A stretch of 64,000 nt of DNA from Pelagibacteraceae bacterium AG-404-P08. GTDB lineage: Bacteria > Pseudomonadota > Alphaproteobacteria > HIMB59. The notes beneath the pieces were generated by a model. The model had not been told where the DNA came from. It did no database searches and was given only the letters and a program-made list of their open reading frames with translations. The stretch is from assembly GCA_003216195.1 (NCBI GenBank), contig QCJF01000004.1, positions 1-64,000 on the forward strand, given 5' to 3'. This document shows positions 7,060-32,780 of this stretch, in pieces. The translations under genes and the position numbers were made by a program. Position 1 is the stretch's first letter; each line of letters starts with the position of its first letter.

Positions 7060-7072
7060 AATACTCTCTAAG

Positions 7073-7160
7073 GAGAATTACACGACCCAACTTTCAGTGT
7101 TACAGCTGCTTTCTTTCGAACCTGACCGGATTGGCACAAAAAATTGCCCATGTAATTCTC
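7073..7160 (-). ncRNA. ffs: Signal recognition particle RNA (4.5S, small bacterial type)
   Basis: Read on the minus strand this stretch contains CCGGTCAGGTTCGAAAGAA followed by AGCAGCTGTAA, the conserved domain IV that binds Ffh. The apical loop is GAAA closed by UC/GA. The ends pair perfectly over ten bases, GAGAATTACA (7151-7160 read in reverse) with TGTAATTCTC (7073-7082), forming a single long hairpin of about 88 nt. It lies just upstream of dnaX, a frequent position for ffs. Exact transcript ends may extend a few bases beyond the stem. The protein partners Ffh and FtsY are encoded at 59-63 kb. Confidence 0.93.
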
Positions 7161-7197
7161 AAATAATCTTATAACAGTATTAAAAGGAAATATGAAG

Positions 7198-28729: not shown

Positions 28730-29041
28730 TTAAATAAATAACACCGGTAAAAAGAAGAGAAAAGAAATAACAATAATGCCGTCTGTTATTAAAGAATAAA
28801 GTTTCATTTTATTTAATTGAAAATAATCCTCATAAACTTTGCCCAGTTGAATTCTAATATGAAGCATTGATATGATAAAAAAAATTAATAATAAAATCTT
28901 ATTAGCGGAAGCTGATAATGAGATATTAAAAGAATTTACATCGGAGTAAGAACTTAAAAAAAATAAAATAAACCAATAGCTAATAGGAATTAACACTAGA
29001 TATAAAACTCTCTCTATTTTCCACTTTTGAGAAGCTTTCAT
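28730..29041 (-). CDS. sdhD: Succinate dehydrogenase membrane anchor subunit D
   Basis: About 103 residues with three membrane helices. The second helix region carries the haem b histidine in [17 protein letters not shown], a pattern typical of SdhD. The start is taken as ATG at 29041, which overlaps the sdhC stop as TAATG and gives the usual N-terminus [20 protein letters not shown] longer start at 29056 exists but would overlap sdhC by 16 bases. Together with SdhC it anchors the complex and forms the quinone site. Confidence 0.88.
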
Positions 29042-29406
29042 TAAAATATCATCCAAGTAAAAATCAAAGTCATTATAATATTTGCTACTAGAATAAGATA
29101 TGTCACTAAGTAGACATTTTTAAGATCCATTCCAATTGAAAATGACCATAAGAAATATTTTAAACCATTTAACAAATGATGATTGAAGATAAAAAACCAA
29201 AAGACAAATATTAGCTTTATAGGTAACAAGTTTATCAACAATGTTAATACTTGATTAAGTTGAGGGAGAAAATTTAAGCTTCCTAACCAAATTGCAAAAA
29301 AAGGTAAAGAAAATGCAAATGCAATTACTCCTATTCTGCTGGAGATAGAAAATACCATTGTCAAAAAAGGCCTATAAATTTGCAAATGGGGTGATATTGG
29401 AGCCAT
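29041..29406 (-). CDS. sdhC: Succinate dehydrogenase cytochrome b556 subunit C
   Basis: A 121-residue three-helix membrane protein. It begins with the conserved MAPISPHLQIYRP; the quinone-site segment is SISSRIGV. The haem histidine probably lies in FNHHLLNGLKYFLWS. It is the first gene of sdhCDAB-mdh-sucAB as read on the minus strand. The 296-bp region upstream separates it from the divergent TRAP genes and holds a palindrome and a structured RNA. Confidence 0.9.
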   Translation of the reverse strand: MAPISPHLQIYRPFLTMVFSISSRIGVIAFAFSLPFFAIWLGSLNFLPQLNQVLTLLINLLPIKLIFVFWFFIFNHHLLNGLKYFLWSFSIGMDLKNVYLVTYLILVANIIMTLIFTWMIF

Positions 29407-29459
29407 AGAAAGGCAATATATTTAAAAATGTCTTATAGTAAAAAACTATTATTTTATTA

Positions 29460-29478: not shown

Positions 29479-29568
29479 AAATAAGGCTGTGGAAAAAATG
29501 TTAATCAAATTGCCCATTCATTAAAATTAAGGTTCTGAAAATGCCCTATATTCAATTAAAATTCAATT

Positions 29569-29652
29569 AGGTCGTGAACATTTTTGTTTAAATGTGCCGA
29601 ATCTCACCCCGCATGAGAAAGCTTTATTCTTATAAAGTTGGCACCACGACCT
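29569..29652 (+). ncRNA. Structured RNA candidate between sdhC and the TRAP operon
   Basis: The 84-base segment is closed by a perfect 8-bp stem AGGTCGTG (29569-29576) with CACGACCT (29645-29652). Inside are a hairpin ACATTT/AAATGT (29578-29583 with 29590-29595), a second closing stem GCC/GGC (29596-29598 with 29640-29642), and within it two hairpins TCTCA/TGAGA (29602-29606 with 29614-29618) and CTTTAT/ATAAAG (29622-29627 with 29632-29637). It is richer in G and C than its surroundings. It ends 50 bases before the dctQ start, so a cis-regulatory leader (riboswitch-like) for the TRAP operon is the leading idea. The strand is inferred, because the complement folds similarly. No known family is recognised, and there is no TpsiC loop, so it is not a tRNA. 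Confidence 0.5.
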
Positions 29653-29702
29653 ATCAATATACTCTCTTTAATATGTTTATTGTCTATATATAATCTGCTG
29701 CT

Positions 29703-30230
29703 ATGTCTGCTTTGGCACAATTATCCAAGTTTATTGATCGATTTAATACATTCATAGGATATCTATGTGCTTTTTTTGTTTTCTCTATGGTCATAGTTGT
29801 ATTCACTGTTGTTGTCTTAAGATATGGGTTCAATATTGGATTTATATGGATGCAAGAGGTTTATGTTTGGCTTCATAGTTTTGTTTTTATGTTGGGTGCT
29901 GGTTTTACTTATTTAGCAAATGAGCATGTCAGAATAGACGTCTTTTACCGAGAGGCATCAAAAAAGTATAAAGCTATCGTTGACCTGTTAGGAAATATTT
30001 TTTTACTTCTCCCATTTTTGTATATTATCTGGAAATACAGCTATCATTTTGTCTATAGATCTTTTTTAATGAATGAAGTATCCAGAGAAGCCGGGGGTAT
30101 GCCAGCTTTATATATTTTAAAAAGTGCAATTTTATGGTTTTGTATAGTTTTATTTCTTCAATTAATTTCAAATGTAATTAAATCAATATTAACACTCACA
30201 AATCATCAAGGGTCTGGTGAGAAAAAATGA
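29703..30230 (+). CDS. TRAP transporter small permease (DctQ-like)
   Basis: A 175-residue protein with four hydrophobic segments. VVLRYGFNIGFIWMQEVYVWL and AGFTYLANEHVRIDVFY are hallmarks of DctQ subunits, which partner the large permease in sodium-driven solute uptake. Its stop overlaps the dctM start by 4 bases. The binding protein is encoded downstream on the other strand rather than in this operon. Confidence 0.92.
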   Translation: MSALAQLSKFIDRFNTFIGYLCAFFVFSMVIVVFTVVVLRYGFNIGFIWMQEVYVWLHSFVFMLGAGFTYLANEHVRIDVFYREASKKYKAIVDLLGNIFLLLPFLYIIWKYSYHFVYRSFLMNEVSREAGGMPALYILKSAILWFCIVLFLQLISNVIKSILTLTNHQGSGEKK

Positions 30231-31603
30231 TTAGCCCTGAAATTTTAGCGATCATAATGTTCTTAACAACATTGGGGTTATTACTTTTTGGTTTTCCTGT
30301 AGCCTTCACACTTGCAGGAACAGCTCTTTTATTTGGATTTTTGGGTGATTTTTTAGAAATCTTTAATTTTAGAATGCTAGGATTTTTTCCTCAGCGCATA
30401 TTTGGAACAATGATCAATGAACCCCTTGTAGCGGTGCCTCTTTTTATTTTTATGGGAATTATGCTGGAAAAAACAAAAATTGCAGCTGGTCTTTTACAAT
30501 CTATTGGTGAGCTTTTTGGGGCTACAAAAGGAGGTCTAGGTATTGGTGTTGTGATAGTAGGTATGCTACTTGCTGCATCAACAGGAATTGTTGGGGCAAC
30601 GGTTGTTACAATGGGAATGCTCTCTTTGCCATCTATGATGAAAGCTGGATATGATCAAAAAATAGCTACTGGCACTATTTGTGCTGCTGGAACATTGGGA
30701 CAAATAATTCCACCTTCAATTGTTTTAGTTTTATTAGCAACAATTTTACAAGGAGCAAATGAAGAAGCGGCAATGTTAGTTGGTAATTTAGCTCCTGATC
30801 CAGTAACTGCAATTGATTTGTTTGCAGGCGCAATATTGCCTGGACTAATGTTGGTAGTATTATTCATTATATTCATTTTTTTTTACGCAAGAATAAATCC
30901 GCTATCCTGTCCTCCGGTAGAAACGACAAGGTCAAGAGGGGAGATTTATATTGAAGCAGCTAAATCTGTTATTCCTCCAATAACTCTCATTGTATTAGTT
31001 TTAGGGTCCATACTTTTTGGCATTGCAACACCTACAGAGTCTGCTTCAGTTGGTGCAGTAGGTGCAGCAATGATAGCACTTTTAAAAGGTGAATTGAATT
31101 TTAAGAACCTCAAGGAAACAGCAATAGGAACAGTAAAGCTTAGTTCATTTGTGTTTGTAATATTAATTGGAGCGTCAATGTTTTCATTAGTTTTTCGTGC
31201 TTTTGGTGGTGATGAAATGATTGAACATTTTCTCGGTAATTTGCCAGGTGGACTTTACGCAGCTCTAATTTTAGTTATGGTAGTTATATTTCTTTTGGGT
31301 TTCTTTCTAGATTATATAGAGATAATTTTTGTCATTGTACCATTAGTGGGTCCAATATTAATTGCAAATGGAGCTGATCCATTGTGGCTTGGTATTCTCA
31401 TATCGTTGAATCTACAAACAAGTTTCCTAACTCCACCATTTGGTTTTTCCTTATTTTTTTTAAGAGGAGTAGCTCCAGACAATATTCAAACTAGAAACAT
31501 GTATAAAGGTGTAATTCCATTTATTGGAATTCAAATATTAGCAATATTAATTGTTGGTTTTTATCCAGAAATTGCAACTTGGTTACCAAGTAAAATGTTT
31601 TAA
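30227..31603 (+). CDS. TRAP transporter large permease (DctM-like)
   Basis: A 458-residue membrane protein with about 12 helices. GGLGIGVVIVGMLLAASTGIVG and ICAAGTLGQIIPPSIVLVLL are diagnostic of DctM. The later part GIATPTESASVGAVGA is equally typical. It forms the ion-coupled translocation pathway. A strong hairpin follows the stop and probably terminates both this gene and the convergent binding-protein gene. Confidence 0.95.
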   Translation: MISPEILAIIMFLTTLGLLLFGFPVAFTLAGTALLFGFLGDFLEIFNFRMLGFFPQRIFGTMINEPLVAVPLFIFMGIMLEKTKIAAGLLQSIGELFGATKGGLGIGVVIVGMLLAASTGIVGATVVTMGMLSLPSMMKAGYDQKIATGTICAAGTLGQIIPPSIVLVLLATILQGANEEAAMLVGNLAPDPVTAIDLFAGAILPGLMLVVLFIIFIFFYARINPLSCPPVETTRSRGEIYIEAAKSVIPPITLIVLVLGSILFGIATPTESASVGAVGAAMIALLKGELNFKNLKETAIGTVKLSSFVFVILIGASMFSLVFRAFGGDEMIEHFLGNLPGGLYAALILVMVVIFLLGFFLDYIEIIFVIVPLVGPILIANGADPLWLGILISLNLQTSFLTPPFGFSLFFLRGVAPDNIQTRNMYKGVIPFIGIQILAILIVGFYPEIATWLPSKMF

Positions 31604-31652: not shown

Positions 31653-32780
31653 TTATGCTGATGGGTAAGTAAATGGGAGACTTCTAACTCTCATGTACTC
31701 TTTCTCAGACGTATTTGTCCATCTTAGAATTGAGGATCTAAATTCAACAATATGTGAAAAAAGAGCCTGTGAAACTGGGTCTTCAGCAGCAATAGCGCTA
31801 CAAACCTCACCTGCTCTTTGACCTAGAGCATTCATAACAGGATCTGGAAGTTGTCTCATTTGAACACCGTGTTCGTTAATAAGTTTTTGGTATGAACTAT
31901 CATTAACAGCTTGGAAAAAAGATAGCACTTCCATATTGACAGCTTTTGAAGCAACAGTAATTAGTTCTCTTGTTGCATCATCTAGCTTCTCCCACTCAAA
32001 CATATCTATTGAACAGTCTAGGATTGTTGCTGGCTCATGCCATCCAGGATTGTAGTAATATTTAGCTGCTTGATGTAAACCTTTACCTAAGTCAGCTGCT
32101 GGACCAATCCATTCTGTAGCATCGATAGCACCAGAAGCAAGTGAAGGAAGCACATCCGCACCTGCTAAAAGAACAGTGTTAGCACCAAATGATTTTAATA
32201 CTTCACCGCCAAGACCAGGCATTCTTATTTTTAAACCTTCAAAATCTGCGAGTGAGTTAATTTCTTTATTAAACCAACCACCCATCTGGTTACCCGTATT
32301 TCCCATTGGAAGAAACTTTACACCAATAGCATTGTATGCTTTGTCTGCTGCTTCAATTCCTCCACCATAATAACACCATGCATTTTGTTCTTGAGCTGTA
32401 AGACCAAAAGGTAAAGCCGCAGAAAACGAAGGTGCCATACTGATGTTAGTCCAATAGTAACCAGCGCCATAAGCCATTTGAGCAGCACCAGATCTAACTG
32501 CATCTAGTGACTCAAGAGGTGGCACTAATTCCCCGCCATGATATACAGTGACTTTTAACTTATCAGATGCATTATTGATATAACTAGCAAATCTATCTAT
32601 TGCTTTGCCAAGACCACTTGCTTTGCCAAAAGCAGAACATGCAATCCATTCCATGTGTCCACCTGATATTGCTGGTGCTGGAAATGAAGAAACTGCTGCG
32701 GCACCCAGTGCTGCAGCACCTGCACCTTTAAGGAAATTTCTTCTTTTCATGGTCTTATTATTAGTCTTTTTTTTTGCCAT
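31653..32780 (-). CDS. TRAP transporter substrate-binding protein, Tat-exported, TakP/FcbT-like
   Basis: A 375-residue periplasmic binding protein with a twin-arginine signal (MKRRNFLKGAGAAALGAAA, residues 11-29). The mature part resembles the 2-oxoacid/mannitol-chloroaromatic TRAP branch: VYHGGELVPPLESLDAVRSG, LKIRMPGLGGEVLKSFGA, DATEWIGPAADLGKGLHQAA, and YYYNPGWHEP. Known members of this branch bind pyruvate and other 2-oxoacids, often with a metal ion. A carboxylate ligand is therefore likely but unproven. It converges on dctQM rather than being in their operon. Confidence 0.9.
   Translation of the reverse strand: MAKKKTNNKTMKRRNFLKGAGAAALGAAAVSSFPAPAISGGHMEWIACSAFGKASGLGKAIDRFASYINNASDKLKVTVYHGGELVPPLESLDAVRSGAAQMAYGAGYYWTNISMAPSFSAALPFGLTAQEQNAWCYYGGGIEAADKAYNAIGVKFLPMGNTGNQMGGWFNKEINSLADFEGLKIRMPGLGGEVLKSFGANTVLLAGADVLPSLASGAIDATEWIGPAADLGKGLHQAAKYYYNPGWHEPATILDCSIDMFEWEKLDDATRELITVASKAVNMEVLSFFQAVNDSSYQKLINEHGVQMRQLPDPVMNALGQRAGEVCSAIAAEDPVSQALFSHIVEFRSSILRWTNTSEKEYMRVRSLPFTYPSA

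Follow-up and report, generated by a model that had tools for sequence, protein, structure and literature searches.

Locus and fold of the element

Within the window, by which we mean the whole 64,000-nucleotide stretch of DNA that was analysed, the spacer between the divergent genes sdhC and dctQ contains an 84-base element that folds into a multi-branched structure on the dctQ strand (Table 1). The element has a G+C content of 42% compared to 23–24% in the flanking spacer. It ends 50 bases before the dctQ ATG, and the start of sdhC lies 162 bases away on the other strand. The closest solved relatives of the linked DctP-type protein include the binding protein 2hzk, which is TakP and was deposited as SmoM, and the ketoacid-binding 7ug8, which suggests that the transporter may carry 2-oxo acids.

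Table 1. Positions of genes, helices and promoter motifs around the element, numbered from the first base of the window
Feature	Position	Strand	Characteristics
sdhC	29041..29406	−	first gene of a divergent TCA-cycle operon; TIGR02970, E 2.7e-17
−35-like CTGAAA	29535..29540	+	weak consensus; alone within shuffle expectation
−10 element TAAAAT	29557..29562	+	putative own promoter of the RNA; 7 nt before GG of P1; consensus scan match
Structured RNA	29569..29652	+	closing stem P1, side hairpin P2, inner stem P3 with hairpins P4 and P5; fold z, covariation, wobbles
P1, 5' strand AGGTCGTG	29569..29576	+	pairs with 29645–29652, 8 pairs
P2 hairpin	29577..29588	+	variable sequence and length
P3, 5' strand GTGCC	29594..29598	+	pairs with 29640–29644
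P4 hairpin TCTCA-CCCCGCA-TGAGA	29602..29618	+	near-invariant stem and loop
P5 hairpin	29620..29639	+	variable; compensatory and wobble changes keep pairing
P3, 3' strand GGCAC	29640..29644	+	pairs with 29594–29598
P1, 3' strand CACGACCT	29645..29652	+	pairs with 29569–29576
TATAAT	29689..29694	+	follows the RNA; probable −10 from which dctQ would be transcribed separately
dctQ (TRAP small permease)	29703..30230	+	PF04290, E 2.9e-16
dctM (TRAP large permease)	30227..31603	+	TIGR00786, E 9.2e-93
dctP-type solute-binding protein	31653..32780	−	convergent to dctQM; TakP-like 2-oxo-acid binders among the closest solved relatives

The minimum free energy of the plus strand amounts to −27.5 kcal/mol, compared to −12.9 ± 2.5 kcal/mol for dinucleotide shuffles (z −5.78, none of 200 as good). 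Of the 3196 segments of 84 bases in the 64 kb, only 0.13% match or exceed this stability, and those listed as better begin within genes. In the proposed structure P1 and P3 would stack on each other, with the variable side hairpin P2 and, on the inner stem, the invariant P4 with its loop CCCCGCA and the variable P5. The fold reproduced, part by part and in place, what the original prediction, made from the sequence without database searches, had described in the AT-rich spacer: eight closing pairs around one hairpin and a second closed domain with two more. Its distances to both genes were likewise right, and its organic-acid permease agrees with the relatives of the binding protein.

Two further conserved features were observed in the spacer upstream of sdhC. 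The segment 29487–29510 (TGTGGAAAAAATGTTAATCAAA) contains the DnaA-box-like TGTGGAAAA, a 9-mer that is kept in the ten representatives with a short P2 that were checked and that is rare, with four occurrences in 400 kb of G002, a complete relative; it is possibly a regulator site of sdhC. At about 29436–29452 (ATAGTAAAAAACTAT), near the probable sdhC promoter, a conserved inverted repeat ATAGTAAAAANCTAT is found, also in the relatives with a long P2.

Conservation, covariation and distribution

For the pair analysis, 25 distinct sequences of relatives were compared at 22 pairs. Standard pairs filled 94.3% of the pair cells, and this value dropped to 35–47% when the partners were slid against each other. 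Compensatory changes on both sides occurred in 7 of the 22 pairs, with none of 500 shuffles attaining the covariation score, and an independent MAFFT alignment gave a similar result. When changes were mapped by parsimony onto a tree built from the neighbouring dctQ region, five double changes kept the pair, several of them independently; 17 single changes also kept it, all involving G·U on the plus strand. Examples are CG>TA and GC>AU changes in P1 of one relative and the alternatives UA/CG/UG and GC/AU in P3. Because relatives keep the structure with compensatory changes, it is strongly supported that the element is an RNA whose structure is real and beyond chance. The RNA is most likely read toward dctQ since 18 wobbles fit a plus-strand RNA only, compared to 5 that fit a minus-strand RNA only. 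A loss of the stems in close relatives, which would have spoken against the original prediction, was not seen.

Conservation is unevenly distributed over the helices. While the sequence CTCACCCCGCATG of P4 is identical in every distinct relative aligned, three divergent relatives (L048, L054 and L055) have a P2 that is branched and measures about 55 nt, with P1, P3, P4 and P5 being the same. This long P2 contains a common hairpin around GYGCAACCTTA. As the tree does not clearly group the three sequences, the long form may be ancestral. An apparent loss of P1 pairs in their rows of one alignment turned out to be an alignment artefact. A small open reading frame across the element (ATGTGCCGAATC... 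in the window) was rejected as well: insertions or deletions of one or two bases in P5 break the frame in relatives, and other relatives lack the ATG.

With a covariance model, 42 genomes of the window's genus, marine Alphaproteobacteria of the HIMB59 type, were matched at E 8e-7 or better with one copy each, and an exact 16-mer of the P4 core occurred once in each of 37 genomes of the genus. Wherever the context could be read, the element is located between sdhC and dctQ; in the 31 relatives that were fetched it lies between the same genes, except for one contig that starts too late. The window comes from an AT-rich alphaproteobacterium; its nearest records belong to marine single-cell genomes and to an assembly with the label alpha proteobacterium HIMB59. 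Where a genome of the genus gave no match, its assembly does not contain the dctQ orthologue or the locus, with one contig beginning at dctQ and another ending inside sdhC, and thus no true loss was seen within the genus.

Neither the exact core nor the models gave anything convincing in the sister family, where dctQ follows gyrA without such a leader and sdhC has other neighbours. In samples of 385 genomes of the class and 398 of the phylum, the element was found in the genus only. The weak covariance matches outside the genus, in six genomes, lie inside protein-coding frames and were assigned to chance, as was a second weak match in the window's own genome. No second copy and no other gene context was found in the genus or in the class and phylum samples. 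Phage records gave no match to the element; the exact core 16-mer occurred ten times in viral contigs, in no case with the flanking structure and mostly in one shared, coding-looking sequence.

Putative promoter motifs of the RNA and of dctQ

Upstream of P1 the representatives with a short P2 share a −10 hexamer. Counted from the GG of P1, T, A and T are found at −13, −12 and −8 in all ten of them and an A before the final T in nine, whereas the inner positions vary (TAAAAT, TAATAT, TACAAT, TAAAGT, TATTAT, TATGAT). Apart from this hexamer their upstream DNA is only about 43% identical. In the three members with a long P2, the motif is not at the same offset. The pattern is of the sigma-70 type and would place the start of transcription at the first bases of P1. 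Three relatives (L031, L032 and L034) show a palindrome TTTTGANTCAAAA about 22 nt upstream of this −10, which is partial in other relatives and absent from the window's clade; an activator or repressor of the RNA may bind there.

A second motif, TATA[AC]T, follows P1 after 33–37 nt in all 13 divergent representatives. Since 8–9 bases separate it from the downstream dctQ ATG in ten of the 13, the dctQ message probably starts after the RNA and within a few bases of the ATG, being nearly leaderless. Divergent genes within a 400 kb sample of G002 showed no clear enrichment of a −10 at the fixed spacing of 8–9 nt before their starts; hence it is the conservation across relatives that carries the leaderless reading. 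No Shine–Dalgarno motif was found before dctQ, and in the genus sample few open reading frames are preceded by a similar one (70 of 425). Between the RNA and dctQ the search gave zero terminator-like sites, the 3' flank being only T-rich. Within the spacer no alternative partner for P1 was found, and no ribosome-binding-site switch is visible.

Relation to known RNAs and possible function

Rfam 15 gave no match at the element at the gathering threshold in the window, nor in five divergent relatives. With E values up to 10, only a partial MS2 match of 14.2 bits, far below threshold, appeared there on the minus strand. No tRNA or tmRNA lies at the locus; the single tRNA match of the window and the tmRNA of the genome lie at other positions. 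A bacterial small SRP RNA (RF00169, 50.4 bits) was detected at 7068–7162 on the minus strand of the window. None of the papers searched prints the core sequence. The original prediction had called the RNA unassigned, and it is a candidate for a new family absent from Rfam.

The nearest parallel in the literature may be drawn to 'Candidatus Pelagibacter ubique', for which candidate non-coding RNAs were described, among them a 'fourth motif' with a three-stem junction that was judged to be separately transcribed (Meyer et al. 2009, PMC2704228). Both are small RNAs of a streamlined marine alphaproteobacterium, confined to one locus, with a multi-stem junction and a conserved stem. The 'fourth motif' is flanked by SAR11_0635/0636, however, and the text of PMC2704228 names no sdh or TRAP genes, so that the two are set apart here by description and not by sequence. 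Similar to trans-encoded small RNAs of alphaproteobacteria, the element is intergenic, has a putative promoter of its own, judged by comparative −10 conservation, and exposes an invariant C-rich loop, but neither an intrinsic terminator nor a conserved target was found for it.

For the conserved fold, its strand, the single locus and the two conserved −10 motifs observed, we favor with moderate confidence a lineage-specific, separately transcribed small structured non-coding RNA acting via the invariant P4 loop. We regard an independent transcript as probable, judging from the promoter motifs. A sigma-70-type promoter with its −10 at 29557–29562 would drive the RNA from a plus-strand start at, or within 1–2 bases of, the first base of P1; the transcript would presumably end near the base of P1, and dctQM would be transcribed separately from TATAAT at 29689–29694. 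The role of P4 is more tentative. The near invariance of its stem and loop, while other helices vary, suggests a contact site that acts through its sequence, and the exposed loop may pair with an RNA or bind a protein in trans. A search with the only 8-mer used, GCGGGGTG, which is complementary to the P4 loop, revealed no conserved mRNA site in nine genomes. The only recurrent match in these genomes apart from the element itself is on the strand opposite to what we take to be 16S rRNA.

A stand-alone RNA has to account for the fact that the element always adjoins dctQ, as a cis role would also predict. The main rival is accordingly a cis-acting leader of dctQM on a read-through transcript, either a riboswitch, sensing for example a 2-oxo acid, or a protein-responsive element. 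The shared strand, the promoter directly before the structure and the invariable synteny agree with it, as do a transporter for small organic acids whose binding protein is related to 2-oxo-acid binders and a multi-branched, aptamer-like fold of 84–130 nt with an invariant core. Compact covarying folds with an invariant core beside a transporter operon are also what orphan riboswitch candidates look like. We nevertheless consider such a leader unlikely. A conserved −10 separates the RNA from dctQ, no terminator or anti-terminator, no Shine–Dalgarno motif and no alternative pairing were found in the spacer, hence no expression platform, and dctQ of the sister family does without the element. 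Where a riboswitch would be expected before several genes of a pathway or in several lineages, the element is confined to a single locus in one genus and never precedes any other gene. Of the original prediction, the covarying multi-branched RNA on the dctQ strand thus stands, whereas its ligand-sensing transporter leader, though possible, is disfavored and not well supported. A more specific variant, a new aptamer class in which P4 and the inner junction would bind a 2-oxo acid or TCA-cycle intermediate and coordinate sdhCDAB-mdh-sucA with dctQM in HIMB59-type bacteria, is speculative and we give it little credence.

It is improbable, too, that the RNA titrates a protein or binds polymerase in the manner of CsrB or 6S RNA with P4 as the protein site. 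A hairpin that stays near-invariant among varying helices is typical of recognition by a protein, and 6S RNA (RF00013) likewise comes from a structured regulatory RNA gene present in one copy. In six genomes of the genus, all with a detected alpha tmRNA, no match to 6S RNA appeared, but this proves little since the Rfam model recovers 6S RNA in only 5 of 14 control genomes. The element differs from 6S RNA in length and architecture, with no rod and central bubble, does not match its model at the locus, and contains one motif copy per RNA and no GGA loops. Far less can be said for a minus-strand leader of the divergent sdhCDAB operon: this strand folds well (z −4.1) and the sdhC start is close, but the wobbles point the other way, no conserved minus-strand −10 lies beside P1, and the right flank diverges except for TATAAT. 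We hardly expect an element acting as DNA either, be it a cruciform, a protein-binding site or a mobile repeat. Inverted repeats leave both strands foldable, as seen here, yet tolerance of G·U-type changes is largely confined to one strand sense, a promoter motif sits at the 5' edge, and a single copy per genome with no others does not agree with a mobile repeat.

HIMB59-type genomes are very small with little non-coding DNA, and an RNA of 84–130 bases that is kept throughout the genus is therefore unlikely to be neutral. The new family would have TCA-cycle genes on one side and those of an organic-acid transporter on the other.
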